Assembly: GCF_003353065.1 (NCBI RefSeq)
Contig: NZ_CP027806.1
Coordinates: 4,112,501-4,176,500 of the forward strand
Source: Cyclonatronum proteinivorum
GTDB lineage: Bacteria; Bacteroidota; Rhodothermia; Balneolales; Cyclonatronaceae
Direction of reading: 5' to 3'
Length of the DNA: 64,000 nt
The notes beneath the pieces were generated by a model that ran no database searches, was not told where the DNA came from, and worked only from the letters and a program-made list of their open reading frames with translations. The position numbers were made by a program, and so were the translations under genes. Of the stretch, positions 16,660-40,500 are shown in pieces (the stretch's first letter is position 1; every line of letters starts with the position of its first letter).

Positions 16660-17215
16660 CAGAGGACAGAGGACGGCAGACCGCAGACGGCGGACCGCGG
16701 AAGGCTGACAGCATAGGACAGAGGATGGGGGACGGAAGTCGGAGGTTGGAAGACAGAAGACGGAAAACCGCAGACCGCAGACCGCGGACAGCTGACCGCG
16801 GACCGCGGAGGACGGAGGACGGAGATCAGAAGACCGAAGACCGAAGACTGAGGACCGATGGCCGAAGACAATCCTCAAATCTTTGAATCTTCGAATCTTC
16901 GAATCCTTGAATCCTTCGCGCTCTTCGCGTAACCCTTCGCGCCCTTCGCGTTAAATCCCACGGGGTTAAGGGTGCACATTCAATGTGCACCTACGCAGAG
17001 GTGGATAAAGATTTCGGTTTCGGAAAAAACCTTGGTTCGGTTTCCGAAATCCGTGCCACCCATGCGTATGGACGCAAAGCTTGCGTCCCCCCACCCCGAA
17101 TCCCTTCACGTCAAAACCCCGCAGTCCGCCGTCTGCGGTCTGCGGTCAATTCCTCAAATCCTCAAATCCCAAATCCCCCCGTAACGTCCGGTAACGTTCC
17201 GGTTTCGGGATAGGA
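16660..17215. repeat. Mosaic inverted-repeat element, copy A (longest)
   Basis: It starts at the stop codon of the CARF gene. The order is: purine-rich GACCGCAGAC/GAAGACCGAAGAC units; AATCTTCGAATCTTCG units; TTCGCGCTCTTCGCG units; a GTGCAC...GTGCAC palindrome; GGACGCAAAGCTTGCGTCC; CCCTTCACGTCAAAA; then CTGCGGTCTGCGGTC, the reverse complement of the starting units; and CTCAAATCC units. The ends are therefore inverted. The short frames inside it are repeat translations, not genes. Confidence 0.8.
17179..17201 (+). repeat. 23-bp sequence repeated inverted at 26654-26676
   Basis: The sequence holds GTAACGT-CCG-GTAACGT-TCCG, a near tandem duplication. Its exact reverse complement lies at 26,654-26,676. 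The pair brackets the DUF4258 gene, cas4, cas1, cas2, the helicase and the CRISPR array. Confidence 0.8.
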
Positions 17216-17399
17216 GCCGTGACGCCCTTACTTTTGGGATGAAGCAACCATGATAGGATAAGATTACGGCAGCGGTTCTGGTCCAAGGCTGCTGCCATTC
17301 CGGCCGGAAACCTACAGACGGCCATCATCGCAGACGGCTATCCCTGTTTGTCTTTTACTTTTTTCTCTCCATCCCCAATCACGTGAAAGGAAGTACGCT

Positions 17400-17816
17400 A
17401 TGACCGATACCGATACCCTTCTCACTCCTACGTGCCTCACAGCAGCCGGAATCCCAACGGCAACTGCTGCAGTGCCGGATGTTTCGCATCCCGCCGGAAC
17501 CAGCCCTGACCTGCCGCTGCGCATTGTACTCAGCGATCATGCCCGTACGCGGATGGCACAGCGCGGCATTAGTCCCCTCGCCGTGAAGCTCGCCATCACC
17601 CGCGGCGTGTGCATCCGCAAGCAGGGCCTCGTATTCCGGGTGCTGCGCGGCAAGGACATCCCCCCAAGCATCAGCCCGCACACACGGGGCCGAATCAAAA
17701 ACACCGTCGTTGTTACCAAAACCGACACGGATACCGGCACCTGCCTCGTACTCACGACCTACCGTAACGACAAGGCCCTCAAACACATCCGCCTGAAGCC
17801 TGACGGCCTGCTGTGA
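17400..17816 (+). CDS. DUF4258 domain protein
   Basis: 138 residues. The core LSDHARTRMAQRGISPLAVKLAITRG is the DUF4258 start (S-x-H-A-x-x-R-M-x-x-R-G-I), followed by beta strands FRVLRGKD and NTVVVTKTDTDTGTCLVLTTYRND. The first 40 residues are Thr/Ala/Pro-rich and look disordered. Some DUF4258 proteins resemble RelE-like toxins, but no antitoxin gene is adjacent here. It sits between the NE0113-like CARF gene and cas4, with mosaic repeats on both sides. A role in CRISPR adaptation is not shown; it may be a passenger. Confidence 0.65.
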   Translation: MTDTDTLLTPTCLTAAGIPTATAAVPDVSHPAGTSPDLPLRIVLSDHARTRMAQRGISPLAVKLAITRGVCIRKQGLVFRVLRGKDIPPSISPHTRGRIKNTVVVTKTDTDTGTCLVLTTYRNDKALKHIRLKPDGLL

Positions 17817-17819
17817 CGG

Positions 17820-18150
17820 GGCGTTGACCGCAGACGGCAGACCGCAGACCGCGGACGGCGGAGGTCAGAGGTCAGAAGACGGCGGAGGACGGAAGACGGA
17901 AGACGGAGGGCGGAGGACGGAAGACGGAAGACGGAAGACGGAAGTCTGCAGACCGCGATCGCGGGAATCGGCTTCCGAAACCTGTGCCACCCTCGCGTAA
18001 GGACGCAAAGCTTGCGTCCCCCTTAGCCGCCCCCCCCGGAATCCCTTCACGTCAAAACTCCGCGGTCTGCCGTCTGCGGTCTGCGGTCAAATCCTCAAAT
18101 CCGCCAAAAGCCAACCGCCTCAAACCACAAACCACAAACCACAAAACCTC
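17820..18150. repeat. Mosaic inverted-repeat element, copy B
   Basis: It begins 3-8 bp after the DUF4258 stop with TTGACCGCAGACGGCAGACC and a long GGAAGACGGAAGAC run. It continues with CGTAAGGACGCAAAGCTTGC, then CCCTTCACGTCAAAA, then the inverted CTGCCGTCTGCGGTC units, and ends in AACCACAAACCACAAACC just before cas4. Confidence 0.8.
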
Positions 18151-18153
18151 CCC

Positions 18154-18747
18154 ATGCTCCGACCCCATTACATTCCGCCTTCGCTTTTTGTAGAGGGTCT
18201 TTTTTGCAGCCGGCGGCTTTGGCTGAAGGCGCACCATGTTGAGATTTTTGATGAGGTGCAGACCCTTGCGATGGCCCGCACGCTGAAGCAGCACATTACC
18301 GGCATCCGGATGGATGATACCGGCTGGATTTACGAGGCCAGGCTGCCTTCCGGTACCCGGCTTGATGCCTGGGTGCCCGAAGAGAAGCTTGCCATTGAAT
18401 TCAAAAGCGGGTCACCGCACCCGACGCATGTATATCAGGCCTGGGCCATCAGGCAGGAATTGGAACAGCTTGGTGTACAGGATGCCGAGGTGCACCTTTG
18501 GTACGCCGGCGCTTTTGAAAAAGAAGCTGAAACCCTGGCCCAGGCCTACAAACTCGATCATGACTGGATTACGGATGACCTGTACGCGGTTTGTGCCGAT
18601 ACCGAGGATCCCGATTTCGGGCTTCGCATGGAGCGCGGCGCAGCCATTCTGCTGGCCGAAACAACACAGGAAGCCATCCCCGAAACCAAAGCATCCGCAT
18701 CCCCGACCTGCGCAAGCTGCGCCTACTTCCCCTTTTGCCATTCGTGA
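18154..18747 (+). CDS. cas4: CRISPR-associated exonuclease Cas4
   Basis: 197 residues. The Fe-S cluster cysteines are visible: Cys18 in LFCSRRLW near the N-terminus, and Cys186, Cys189 and Cys195 in CASCAYFPFC at the end. The RecB-like nuclease core has Asp71 (LDAWV), Glu82 and Lys84 (IEFKSG). Cas4 trims prespacers and helps choose PAM and orientation before Cas1-Cas2 integration. It precedes cas1 but is separated from it by 272 bp of mosaic repeat rather than being tightly coupled. Cas4 is more typical of type I, so its presence beside a Csm operon is notable. Confidence 0.9.
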   Translation: MLRPHYIPPSLFVEGLFCSRRLWLKAHHVEIFDEVQTLAMARTLKQHITGIRMDDTGWIYEARLPSGTRLDAWVPEEKLAIEFKSGSPHPTHVYQAWAIRQELEQLGVQDAEVHLWYAGAFEKEAETLAQAYKLDHDWITDDLYAVCADTEDPDFGLRMERGAAILLAETTQEAIPETKASASPTCASCAYFPFCHS

Positions 18748-19018
18748 GGGGGGGGACCGCTGACGGCGGACCGCGGACCGCGGACCGCGGACAGAGGACG
18801 GAGGACCGTTGCCACCTTCGCGTAAGGACGCAAAGCTTGCGTCCCCCGCCCCATATTCACCCCGAATCCCTTCACGTCAAAACCCCGCGGTCCGCCGTCC
18901 GCGGTCTGCCGTCAATTCTTCAAATCCCCAAATCCGCCAAAACCCCGAACCACAAACCACAAACCTCAAACCTCAAACCTCAAACCTCAAACCTCAAACC
19001 TAAATCCTAAATCCTCCC
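18748..19018. repeat. Mosaic inverted-repeat element, copy C
   Basis: It fills the whole cas4-cas1 gap. GACCGCTGACGGCGGACC units follow the cas4 stop. Then come CGTAAGGACGCAAAGCTTGC, CCCTTCACGTCAAAA, inverted CCGCGGTCTGCCGTC units, CTTCAAATCC units and a tandem CAAACCT run ending one base before the cas1 start. Confidence 0.8.
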
Positions 19019-19019
19019 C

Positions 19020-20102
19020 ATGAAATCATCCTTCTATCTTTTTCAGCCCGTTACGCTGAAGCGTCAGGATAACAGCCTGGCCATCCTTCCGTTTGGAAAT
19101 CCGGACCGGGAGCCTTTCCCCGGTGAGAAAATCGGTCGGGAACTGCAGGACGAGTTTCCCCTGGCCGAGGAAGATGCCTGGTGGCAGGGCGCGCCCCGCT
19201 ATGTGGCGGTGGAGCGCATCGACAGCATTCATGCGTACAGCTCGGTGCGCATCAATACCGGGCTGCTGAATTTTCTGGCTGAGAAGCACATCCCCCTGCA
19301 CACCTACAATTATTTTGGCGGCTATACCGGCACCTACTGGCCGAAAGAACCCATCCCGAACGGACGCATTCAGCAGGCGCAGTTTCTGCATTATGCCGAT
19401 ACGGAAAAGCGCCTCACCCTGGCCAGTGAAATCCTGCGGGGTGCTTTTCACAACATGCACAGCGCCGTGAAACGGGAAAACCGGCGCTCTGGTCAGTTCA
19501 CGGATTTGCTGGAGGAATGGCATCTTTCGGCGGCCCGGCTGGAAGAGGCACAAAGCGTGAACATGCTGCTGGGTGTGGAAGGTAATATCCGCAAGACCTA
19601 CTACGAATTCCTGGACCGGCGACTGACGCCCGACTTTCAGATGGAAGGCCGCGTGTACCGTCCGCCGAACAATCCGGTGAATGCGCTGGTATCGTACCTC
19701 AACAGCATGCTGTACGCATCCATCATCAGTGAGCTGTACCGTACGCAGCTCAACCCGCTGGTGGGCTGGCTGCACGAACCCGGCCGGCAACGGTTCCCGC
19801 TTGCGTGGGATTTGGCAGAGATCTTTCGTCCGCATCTCGTGGAAGGCCTCATCATGAGCATGATCAACAAGAAACAGCTTGATGCCACGCATTTTGAGGC
19901 ATCCCTTAGCGGCTGTATGCTCACCCCGGAAGGGCGGATGAAAGTCATTCGTGCCTTCGAGCACCGCATGCAGACAACGATCAAGCACCGCGACCTGGGC
20001 CGCTCGGTAAGCTACCGCTACCTGCTGCGCCTCGAAGGCTACAAACTCGTAAAACACCTGCTCGGAGATAAACCCTATGTTTCATTTAGGATATGGTGGT
20101 GA
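19020..20102 (+). CDS. cas1: CRISPR integrase Cas1
   Basis: 360 residues, close to the usual Cas1 length for type I-B/III systems. Metal ligands can be read as Glu187 (GVEGNIRKTYYE), His252 (GWLHEPG) and Asp264/Glu267 (WDLAEIFRP). NYFGGYTGTYWP is the family's N-to-C domain link. Cas1 forms the complex with Cas2 that inserts new spacers at the leader end of the array. Its end overlaps the longest possible cas2 frame; the likely cas2 start is 4 bp after this stop. The start ATG follows the mosaic repeat directly. Confidence 0.96.
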   Translation: MKSSFYLFQPVTLKRQDNSLAILPFGNPDREPFPGEKIGRELQDEFPLAEEDAWWQGAPRYVAVERIDSIHAYSSVRINTGLLNFLAEKHIPLHTYNYFGGYTGTYWPKEPIPNGRIQQAQFLHYADTEKRLTLASEILRGAFHNMHSAVKRENRRSGQFTDLLEEWHLSAARLEEAQSVNMLLGVEGNIRKTYYEFLDRRLTPDFQMEGRVYRPPNNPVNALVSYLNSMLYASIISELYRTQLNPLVGWLHEPGRQRFPLAWDLAEIFRPHLVEGLIMSMINKKQLDATHFEASLSGCMLTPEGRMKVIRAFEHRMQTTIKHRDLGRSVSYRYLLRLEGYKLVKHLLGDKPYVSFRIWW

Positions 20103-20106
20103 AGAT

Positions 20107-20550
20107 ATGCATGTAATTGTTGTGTACGATGTGCATCAGAAACGATGTGCCAAAGTGATGAAATACCTGCGTCAGTGGCTCGAACACCGGCAACGATCCG
20201 TCTTTGCAGGGTTCCTTACCGACAGTCAGGTTAAAATCATGTACGACGGACTGCTCGATCTCATCAATGTGCAGTACGACAGCGTGATTGTATTCCAGAG
20301 CAACCGTGCCAATCAGGTGAGCGAATGGAGCACAAGCGCGGCAGTGATGATGCGCCGGGAAGGCGTAACGGCACACCTGCAGCTTAGTCCCGGCCTCTCA
20401 CCCGCCGAATACGCCCGTAACCGCAGGCGTCGCTTTCACGGCGACAAAGCCGCAGGCAAGAACAGCGGCACCGGCAGCGGCACCGTCACCGCAGAAGGAG
20501 AACCGCCCCGGAAAAAGCCGAAGCTCCGCTTTAGCAAGCTTAGGAAGTGA
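20107..20550 (+). CDS. cas2: CRISPR-associated Cas2 with basic C-terminal tail
   Basis: 147 residues from the ATG at 20107 (MHVIVVYDVHQKRCAKVMKYLRQWL). A longer frame from 20077 overlaps cas1 and lacks Cas2 character. The ferredoxin-like core covers about residues 1-95: VVYDV at strand 1 with the Asp, RSVFAGFLTDSQ, and YDSVIVFQS. After that comes an unusual tail of about 45 residues rich in Arg, Lys, Gly and Pro (ARNRRRRFHGDK to KPKLRFSKLRK), not part of ordinary Cas2 of 85-100 residues. The tail could bind DNA or be read-through of former repeat sequence. It forms the adaptation complex with Cas1. Confidence 0.92.
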   Translation: MHVIVVYDVHQKRCAKVMKYLRQWLEHRQRSVFAGFLTDSQVKIMYDGLLDLINVQYDSVIVFQSNRANQVSEWSTSAAVMMRREGVTAHLQLSPGLSPAEYARNRRRRFHGDKAAGKNSGTGSGTVTAEGEPPRKKPKLRFSKLRK

Positions 20551-20822
20551 GGACACGGTTGTTTGACCGCAGACCGCAGACGGCGGACAGCGGGGGACAG
20601 AGGACCGAAGACAGAGGACCGATGACCGATGACCGATGAGTATCCTCAAATCTTCGAATCTTCCAATCTTTGAATCTTCAAATCCCTTCGCGCGCTTCGC
20701 GTAACCCTTCGCGCCCTTCGCGTTAAACTCCTCCGGGTTAAGGGTGCACATGCCACCCCGAATCCCTTCACGTCAAAACTCCGCGGTCTGCGGTCCGCGG
20801 TCCGCCGTCAAATCATCAAATC
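20551..20822. repeat. Mosaic inverted-repeat element, copy D
   Basis: It starts at the cas2 stop with TTGACCGCAGACCGCAGACGG. It continues through AATCTTCGAATCTTCCAATC, CGCGTAACCCTTCGCGCCC and GGGTTAAGGGTGCACATG, then CCCTTCACGTCAAAA and inverted CTGCGGTCCGCGGTCC units. It ends 2 bp before the helicase ATG. Confidence 0.8.
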
Positions 20823-20824
20823 CC

Positions 20825-22642
20825 ATGACTCACACCATCAACTGCCTCGCGCCGCCGCCTATGCCGGCGCAGCCACTTACAGCGCATCAGCAGAAGGCCT
20901 TTGAGGGTATCCTCGGCTTTCTGGATGATCCGGGGCTGCATGCGTTTTTGCTGCTCGGGTATGCCGGTACCGGAAAGACCTTTTTGCTGCGGCATGTGCT
21001 GGAGGTCTGTGAGGAGGCCGGGCTGAAGACGGTGCTGCTTGCACCTACGGGCCGCGCGGCACGGATTCTGGAGCAGGCTACGCAGCGGGAGGCTTCCACC
21101 ATACACCGGGCGCTGTATGAGCAGACCCGCGAGTACTGTACCGATGAGGGCTACCGGGCGGAGTTCAGCCTGCGGGAAAATGAGGACCCTGACACGACCC
21201 TCTACCTCATTGATGAAGCTTCCATGCTCAGCGATATGGAGGCCGACAGTGAGGAGCTGTGTTTTGGCAGCGGCAGGCTGCTGCTTGACCTCATCACCTA
21301 CGTCTCGCCCTACCGCAGCAGCCGTAAACTGCTGTTCATCGGGGATCCCGCACAGCTTCCGCCCGTGCATCAGGCGGGGAGTCCGGCCCTGGCGCGGAGC
21401 TACCTGCACCACAGCTATGGCCTGCAGTGCGCGCAGGCAACCCTCACGCAGGTGCACCGGCAGCAGCGCGACAGCCGGCTGCTGGAAACCGCGACCCGCC
21501 TGCGCAGCGAGCTCCACAAGGCCGGGCACCGCAGCTTTCACATCGTCGGGAACGGGCACGATATATTTGAGCGCACGCCTGCAAGCCTGATTTCCGCCTA
21601 TGCCCGGCACCTGAAGCGCTATACCGTGCCCCGCATTATCTGGATTACGCACAGCAACAAAGCGGCACACGAAACCAACCGTGCGGTTCGGCAGGCCCTC
21701 GGCTACCGCTCCGCCCGCCTGCAGCAGGGCGAGCTGCTGATGGCCGCGCGCAACCATTACAGCCCCGAGGCCTTCTTCATGAACGGCGATCAGATGCGGG
21801 TTGTGCACCTCGCGCCCGAATCTGAAACCGAAACAGTGGAAGTACAGCTCAACTACCGCGATCAGAAAGGGGTGCGGGTGCAGTTGCGGTACCGACAGGC
21901 ACAGGTGCGGCTGTTGCACGAAGCGCCGGATGCCGGGCCGGTGCGCATCCTCCTGCTGGAAAACAGCCTCACCGATTTCCGCACGGGTCTGCTCAGCGCC
22001 GCCGCCTGGGTTGAGAGCATGAAACGCTGGCAGGCCGATCCGCAGGGGCTCGAGCTCGAAGCCTTCCGCCGGCAGGATGCCCGCGCCAACGCCCTGCTCG
22101 TGCGTTTCGGCTACGCCATCACCTGCCACAAAGCACAGGGCGGCGCCTGGGAAACGGTCATCCTCAACCCCGAACACCCCGTGCCCCTGCACAAAGATGC
22201 CTTCATCCGCTGGGCCTACACCGCCCTCACCCGCAGCCGGAGCAAGCTCTGCCTTAGCGCCCCGGTGCGCTGCCGCAGCCTCAGCAACATCCGGCTGATG
22301 CCCATTCAGCCCTGCGAAGCCTTCCCGGAAACAGTGGCCACACCTCCTGCGGAGGCACACACGCCCGCCCTGCCGCTCACCGTGCGCCCGGCGGATTTCC
22401 ACAAGGCAGCCTGTTACGACCTCATCAGCGGGGTTTGTGAGCGCAGCGGGGTGACGCTTATGGGGGTTACGGAGGAGGAACGGGGGATGTGCTTCCGGCT
22501 CGGAACCGGCATTGCAGGCAGCCGCATTGATGCGTATTTCGACCACGATGGCATCTGCGCAGAGCTCGTACCCCGCAGCCCCGCCGGCTACAAAGATGAC
22601 CGCCTGCTGCGCCTGTACGCCTGCCTCGCCCGGCAGATTTAG
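20825..22642 (+). CDS. RecD-like superfamily 1 helicase in the adaptation module
   Basis: 605 residues from the ATG at 20825 (MTHTINCLAP). An in-frame start at 20744 would translate the mosaic repeat, so I reject it. SF1 motifs: Walker A GYAGTGKT (45-52), APTGRAA (Ia), LIDEASML (II), FIGDPAQLPPV (III), VHRQQRDS (IV) and the C-terminal GYAITCHKAQGGAWETVIL and AYTALTRSRSKL of the UvrD_C_2/RecD group. A further 110 residues follow, unlike the paralogue at 40,515. It lies right after cas2 and before the array leader. It may unwind or process DNA for spacer capture, but it is not a standard adaptation protein. Confidence 0.85.
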   Translation: MTHTINCLAPPPMPAQPLTAHQQKAFEGILGFLDDPGLHAFLLLGYAGTGKTFLLRHVLEVCEEAGLKTVLLAPTGRAARILEQATQREASTIHRALYEQTREYCTDEGYRAEFSLRENEDPDTTLYLIDEASMLSDMEADSEELCFGSGRLLLDLITYVSPYRSSRKLLFIGDPAQLPPVHQAGSPALARSYLHHSYGLQCAQATLTQVHRQQRDSRLLETATRLRSELHKAGHRSFHIVGNGHDIFERTPASLISAYARHLKRYTVPRIIWITHSNKAAHETNRAVRQALGYRSARLQQGELLMAARNHYSPEAFFMNGDQMRVVHLAPESETETVEVQLNYRDQKGVRVQLRYRQAQVRLLHEAPDAGPVRILLLENSLTDFRTGLLSAAAWVESMKRWQADPQGLELEAFRRQDARANALLVRFGYAITCHKAQGGAWETVILNPEHPVPLHKDAFIRWAYTALTRSRSKLCLSAPVRCRSLSNIRLMPIQPCEAFPETVATPPAEAHTPALPLTVRPADFHKAACYDLISGVCERSGVTLMGVTEEERGMCFRLGTGIAGSRIDAYFDHDGICAELVPRSPAGYKDDRLLRLYACLARQI

Positions 22643-22945
22643 GGTTTTTAGACATGGCTTTTGTGGTTTTTGGTTTGTGGTTTTGTGGTTTTGTGGTTTG
22701 AGGTTTGCTGATGCCTAAATATGGTTTACGGTTTTCTGTTGAGAGGAAGCTATTTAGGTTGATGGTTTTAAAACCGTGCACATGCGATGTGCACCTACGC
22801 GAAAAGGGTTCGAAGATTTGGTTTCGGCGAAACGCTTGTTTTGGTTTCCGAAACCCGTAGCACGTCACGTAAGGACGCAATGCTTGCCCCCCAAAAGCCA
22901 ACCGCCAACCGCCAACCGTCCAAATCCCGAATCCACAAATTTATT
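22643..22945. repeat. Mosaic inverted-repeat element, copy E (variant)
   Basis: It starts with GGTTTGTGGTTTTGTGG units, the inverse of the CCACAAACCACAAACC units in copies B and C. It then has GTGCACATGCGATGTGCAC, a GGTTTCGG...TTTCCGAAACC inverted pair, ACGTAAGGACGCAATGCTTGC, and CCAACCGCCAACCG units. It lies directly after the helicase stop. Confidence 0.7.
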
Positions 22946-23280
22946 CCTTTTCCTAACACCTACCCGAAACCCTGTTTAAATGCTGCAAAGAAGGGGGGAT
23001 CTGTCAGCCGGCAGTGTTTTGCGGCTGTTCGGGTGAAATCCTGTAAACGCCCCCTCGCCTGATGAAGGAGATGTGTCTGATTTTGTTAAGGATAGGATGA
23101 TCTGTCAGCCGTTGTTTGGGATGGCTGCCTGTAAGCTTTGGAAATGCAGGCACTTGGTCTTGTTTTTGAGGATGAAGGGGAAGCGGCACCGGTGTCTGAC
23201 AGATTTTACCCCCCGAGCGACCGGCCTTCATGCTTTGAATGCGGGCCGTAATGCGCTATATTGATATTGCGGAAGCACCC
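22946..23280 (+). promoter_or_regulatory. CRISPR leader with candidate promoter
   Basis: A non-coding stretch directly before the first repeat. TTTG (23234-23237), 19 bases, then TATATTG (23257-23263) resembles the Bacteroidota TTTG-N19-TAnnTTTG promoter and would fire rightward into the array 17 bp later. The motif ATCTGTCAGCCG occurs twice (near 22998 and 23099), with CTGACAG again near 23194; these could be recognition sites for integration. Leader assignment rests on the intact repeats being at this end. Confidence 0.6.
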
Positions 23281-40357: not shown

Positions 40358-40500
40358 GGGCGGACGGCAGACCGCGGACCGCGGCGGGCGGAGGACAGAG
40401 GACAGAAGACAGAAGACAGATGTCAGATGTCAGATGTCAGCGAACAATCTTCGAATCTTTAAATCTTTGAATCCTTGAATCCTTGAATTTTCAAATCTCT
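40358..40500. repeat. Mosaic inverted-repeat element, copy F (short)
   Basis: It begins at the stop codon with GGACGGCAGACCGCGGACCG, then GGACAGAGGACAGAAGACAG, GTCAGATGTCAGATGTCAG, and AATCTTCGAATCTTTAAATC units. Only the 5' half of the mosaic is present. It lies at the right end of the CRISPR island, between the Csx20-like gene and the convergent helicase. Confidence 0.75.

Follow-up and report, generated by a model that had tools for sequence, protein, structure and literature searches.

Four gene junctions in the CRISPR adaptation module of Cyclonatronum proteinivorum are occupied by long non-coding spacers that are built from short repeat modules and bounded by arrays of 7-nt units (heptads). 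On alignment, these spacers (A to D) are one related family of non-coding repeats, and two further spacers (E and F) are partial relatives only. We consider it probable that A to D, with the partial E and F, are copies of a single heptad-bounded non-coding intergenic mosaic repeat, which would have been copied among the junctions of a single locus and be tolerated nowhere else. The heptad ends are part of a wider class of arrays found next to genes across the whole genome, the GAC strand being directed away from the nearest gene.

The window, that is, the whole stretch of 64,000 nucleotides analyzed here, covers positions 4112501-4176500 of a single-contig 4.29 Mb genome. The locus encodes an NE0113-family Csm6 ring nuclease, a DUF4258 protein, Cas4, Cas1 (I-B type), Cas2, and a RecD2-like helicase, followed downstream by the CRISPR array, Cas6, Cas10/Csm1 and csm genes, a TIGR02221 protein, and a weak Csx20 match. 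The gene for the DUF4258 protein (window 17400-17816) has the NE0113 ring nuclease on one side and cas4 on the other in each of the five genomes compared, and looks like a standing part of the adaptation module. Ahead of the CRISPR array (window 22985-23220) there are GATCTGTCAGCC / TGACAGATTTT motifs, and similar ATCTGTCAACCCCC motifs are found 3' of cas2 in relatives (at the ends of L135 and L136, reverse strand); all of these are likely to be part of the CRISPR leader. The spacers of interest are the following:

16660..17179, + strand: element A, 3' of the NE0113 stop; the longest copy, missing from the orthologous spacers. It consists of two left heptad arrays, TTCGAATC 8-mers, a CTTCGCG block, the GTGCACAT palindrome, GTTTCCGAAA, the GGACGCAAAGCTTGCGTCC palindrome, GAATCCCTTCACGTCAAAA, right inverted heptads, and TCAAATCC.
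17180..17399, + strand: older spacer with a TAACG-rich motif, 5' of DUF4258 and at the right edge of A; the motif is present in all relatives.
17817..18153, + strand: element B, from the DUF4258 stop to the cas4 start; it ends in AAACCAC heptads and then CCTCCCC-ATG.
18748..19019, + strand: element C, from the cas4 stop to the cas1 start; the shortest core, with AAACCTC heptads up to the ATG.
20551..20824, + strand: element D, from the cas2 stop to the helicase start; with the CTTCGCG block and without the GGACGCAAAGCTTGCGTCC palindrome.
22643..22945, + strand: partial relative E, 3' of the helicase; without GAC heptads. It opens with GGTTTGTGG-type repeats and contains the GTGCACAT palindrome, GTTTCCGAAA, a degenerate palindrome, and CCAACCG heptads.
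40358..40446, + strand: partial relative F, 3' of the Csx20-like gene; left heptads only.

In A to D, the first GACSGCR-type heptad lies 0-14 nt 3' of the stop, and near the other end there are reverse-complement heptads (YGCSGTC) followed by TCAAATCC, past which, in B and C, AAACCAC/AAACCTC heptads lead to CCTCCCC-ATG. The alignment shows that the right module with the invariant GAATCCCTTCACGTCAAAA is common to A, B, C, and D, that the GGACGCAAAGCTTGCGTCC palindrome is common to A, B, and C, and that the TTCGAATC/CTTCGCG block is common to A and D, the CTTCGCG block being missing from B and C. The ordered modules of A to D are 80-91% identical, and the mosaic is mostly one ordered master sequence with internal losses. 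Of the modules of A to D, E has no more than GTGCACAT, GTTTCCGAAA, and the degenerate palindrome, and F matches part of A with 80% identity over 129 bp. A sequence-only reading of the same DNA had described six copies, usually 0-10 bp after stops, with modules in a set order and inverted ends. The set order holds in A to D, with internal losses, and so do the positions after the NE0113, DUF4258, cas4, and cas2 stops (at the slightly wider distance given above) and the inverted ends, which all four have; E and F, however, are not full copies, F having the left half only and E no GAC heptads.

These common modules bear on the idea that heptads simply expanded in place by replication slippage at each junction, without copying between junctions. 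Slippage has been published as an idea for heptameric repeats (PMC4692102), and homogeneous runs at other sites of the genome, such as (GACGGGT)n and (GACAGAA)n, are in keeping with it. But slippage cannot account for non-repetitive modules that recur at four junctions, as GAATCCCTTCACGTCAAAA does; it is contradicted for A to D, and we regard it as very improbable.

Cas1 orthologues with 52-76% identity are found in four relatives (G003, G004, G043, and G058) in an identical gene order, and no modules were found in the orthologous spacers of these four genomes. The spacers there measure from -4 to about 231 bp (not all start positions are exact): DUF4258 and cas4 overlap by 4 bp in two relatives and are 13 bp apart in one, against 337 bp here, and their spacing is longer, with an uncertain start, in the most distant relative; the cas4-cas1 spacer is 18-183 bp against 272 bp; the NE0113-DUF4258 spacer is about 93-231 bp against 740 bp; and the cas2-helicase spacer is 68 and about 209 bp in the two readable relatives against 274 bp. 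The TAACG-rich motif (window 17183-17215, e.g., CGTAACGGTCGGTAACACTACGG), possibly an operator, is recognizable upstream of DUF4258 in five of five genomes (relatives L133-L136), and A can therefore be placed between the NE0113 stop and an older spacer. From these comparisons, a gain of the elements in the present lineage would be the simplest history, and loss in the four relatives a less likely one. A second orthologous junction, at SDR/UGD genes, was dropped from the comparison, as its neighbours differ. Within the window, the csm operon has elements at none of its 12 junctions, and most of its spacers are just as short as in adaptation modules without elements.

Because the relatives without elements have the identical gene order, the repeats appear to have moved in between fixed genes and not to have carried genes with them. 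This matters for the sequence-only reading, which had likened the locus either to integron cassettes or to a family of mobile 3' elements that hitch to genes, and had proposed a search for gain or loss of gene-plus-element units. No such unit has moved among the four relatives. A gene with a structured tail is indeed the layout of an integron-like cassette with an attC-like tail, and weak IntI-like fragments occur at 753-758 kb of the genome. Nevertheless, the same gene order without tails contradicts cassettes, a crude scan found no RYYYAAC/GTTRRRY core-site pairs in A to F, and the genome's only IntI-model fragments (176, 128, and 95 bits in L206, G000:C1:744000-763000) fall below the family cut-off, one with a stop, and lie far from the locus; a crude scan beside them found no attC candidates either. 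Integron-like cassettes are hardly credible here. From the mobile 3' elements, two parts survive, namely gain in place beside stops and a consistent strand polarity, whereas the hitching to genes does not; moreover, related arrays occur on the opposite strand, ahead of genes, as well, and the spread of the inner part is limited to the cas locus.

When A was compared with its own genome by BLAST, the first matches were D, C, B, F, and E, and the remaining ones were only heptads and TTCGAATC-type and CTTCGCG words. Genome-wide, the palindrome occurs three times in exact form, each time in the cas locus. Because the inner modules are confined to the cas locus within this genome, the family appears to have multiplied locally. 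In a search of 245 genomes of the class, the inner modules did not turn up as a set, and one exact 23-nt match (in G348) was all that was seen of them; the heptads and CTTCGCG words are present in several families of the class. A search for a mobile source in viral contigs, plasmids, and phages gave no useful match, apart from one weak plasmid match over 20% of A. In a distant genome (G225), exact GACCGCA arrays are located close to the beginning of a multi-copy sequence; they look unrelated.

Could the elements instead be MITEs or REP-like elements, in which the heptad ends are terminal inverted repeats, a transposase (e.g., Y1/RAYT) acts in trans, and gene ends are preferred? The inverted ends of A to D, their non-coding body of 160-520 bp, and their several copies are what one would expect, and the genome has five Y1_Tnp matches. 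On the other hand, the ends are degenerate tandem arrays with no defined repeat, the flanks of the elements have no obvious target duplication, the copies of the inner modules are in one locus only, and none of the five Y1 genes is near the cas locus. We judge such an origin to be rather unlikely.

The elements fold strongly, with z-scores of -3.6 to -8.4, because their heptads are inverted. Together with their location 0-14 nt past stops, this would suit selected 3' RNA elements, whose hairpins end, process, or stabilize the messenger and tune single adaptation genes. The pairing of the arms, however, is no better within elements (mean 24.75) than between them (25.1), in a comparison of four elements that would miss weak effects, so the arms look interchangeable rather than coevolved, and a hairpin kept by selection is not supported. 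The folding of single strands, which the earlier reading had proposed as a check, yields strong structures without a preference for the element's own arm. In addition, no intrinsic terminator-like site was found on the forward strand of A to D, the relatives manage without the elements, and arrays elsewhere are also upstream of genes. A role as selected 3' RNA elements is quite unlikely.

The exact heptad pattern has 69 matches genome-wide (35 forward and 34 reverse), in about 25 places beyond this locus, and none of 39 array clusters lies within a called CDS. The earlier statement that the elements are absent from the csm operon and the flanks is correct for the rest of the window, but does not extend to the heptads of the genome as a whole. 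Of 36 arrays, 33 have their strand directed away from the nearest gene (p = 2e-7), as do 23 of the 26 outside the window (p = 9e-5), after one tandem duplication was collapsed and with gene calls from a simple custom caller; these p-values overstate independence, because several sites have neighbouring modules in common. Twelve arrays lie within 50 nt of the gene from which they are directed away, and every one of them is on the coding strand, 3' of that gene. The oppositely related arrays lie upstream of genes on the non-coding strand, and include three that are about 400 bp upstream of 16S genes. An even spread in random places, which the sequence-only reading had named as evidence against itself, is therefore half true: the heptads do occur genome-wide, but their positions are non-random. 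The polarity could reflect a function. In other families, usable sites were few and gene calls weak.

Three rRNA operons are 99% identical over 2.4 kb, and their heptad arrays differ, starting where the identity ends, as is expected of slippage. These arrays (L091:4509-4595, L014 near 1501, and L096:3829-3904) offer a natural gauge of the rate of array change. It should be mentioned that we rejected them as 3' ends, since Rfam puts them upstream of 16S.

An unbiased sample of 400 kb in evenly spaced stretches of the genome provides the background, and our genome-wide counts come from searches plus these stretches. In the intergenic DNA of the sample, no short period other than 7 (with 14 and 21) is enriched, bar one 47-bp period-16 signal, and shuffled DNA gave zero such signals. 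Heptad arrays of any kind occur in 5 of about 248 sampled spacers, compared with four of the four junctions A to D (Fisher p about 8e-7), or five of five if the CCAACCG array of E is counted (Fisher p 3e-8). About 16% of intergenic bases in the sample match modules elsewhere in it, an estimate given that the comparison set is enriched in heptads, compared with 0.5% of coding bases. The genome is rich in intergenic repeat modules, and the cas locus is a dense, private case. Among other places, L083:6800-9100 (G000:C1 about 3222800-3225100) has three tandem copies of a non-coding unit of about 840 bp, which includes GACCGCA heptads, a CCCCTCTCGAGAGGGG module, and CATCCTGAGCG-type modules. In L084 (G000:C1:3122000-3141000), the spacers between sugar-nucleotide genes are full of CTTCGCG, AGTATGTC, and CATCCTGAGCG/GGATCCTTCGACT modules, partly in tandem blocks.

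For the copying of one mosaic repeat within the cas locus, which we favour, the following course can be imagined: (i) one element would have entered the locus and then spread by copying between the junctions, with recombination or template switching at the common heptads, or non-autonomous transposition, as the means; (ii) the heptads may then have drifted by slippage, and inner modules may have been lost by deletion; and (iii) copies would have survived nowhere but between genes, as an insertion at any other place would disrupt a gene. Any effect on expression, such as the uncoupling of adjacent cas genes or RNA hairpins, is probably a side effect. We count it against this explanation that neither a target-site duplication nor, in the class, a donor carrying the inner modules was found, and that the elements are confined to the adaptation module and absent from the equally tight csm operon.

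Among known systems, the heptads of Xanthomonas and Nostoc (GGGAATC / GGGGA(C/T)T) follow stops on the coding strand and precede starts on the non-coding strand (PMC4692102). Like the arrays described here, they are 7-nt tandem units, intergenic, near genes, and variable in array length, and 33 of our 36 arrays follow their strand and position rule. Their units are quadruplex-capable with G-triplets, whereas ours are GACNGNN (GACSGCR/GACGGAA) without regular G-triplets; furthermore, our arrays form the borders of larger mosaics that contain palindromes and inverted copies, and include a local cas-locus family. The strand rule thus extends to a different heptad in another phylum. It is conceivable, though decidedly unlikely, that a copying process coupled to gene ends (e.g., repair linked to transcription, or template switching primed by R-loops) inserts mosaics with heptad borders between stop and start codons and multiplies them there; if so, the rule in Balneolota, Xanthomonas, and Nostoc would reflect one unrecognized mechanism and not chance plus selection.

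The NIMEs of Neisseria, for which a role in promoting recombination has been proposed, are also mosaics of short modules with inverted repeats concentrated in intergenic arrays (PMC3898611). They have dRS3 (ATTCCC-N8-GGGAAT) flanking RS modules; here there is none, the boundaries are GAC/GTC heptad arrays, and the inner modules are restricted to one locus. REP/BIME elements with RAYT transposases are likewise extragenic palindromic mosaics between genes, but their GTAG-type head and 20-40 bp palindrome in alternating orientation are not seen here (PMC2817692). The TAACTGA heptamers of Beggiatoaceae, Cyanobacteria, and Bacteroidetes are intergenic direct repeats, patchy across phyla, as ours are, but they are a near-perfect single unit mostly just upstream of starts, whereas ours are degenerate and mostly after stops (PMC4679880). 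Integron attC cassettes have a structured tail after each gene, but the present locus is without core sites, an integrase beside it, or gene shuffling. The defining sequence features of NIMEs, REPs, and quadruplex heptads are absent, and the elements are best read as a new heptad-bounded variant of intergenic mosaic/heptameric repeats. The locus is an instance of non-coding mosaic repeats that lie between co-directional CRISPR adaptation genes of unchanged order and for which orthologous sites free of the elements are available, and the origin of bacterial heptad repeats becomes testable by strain comparison and spacer deletion.
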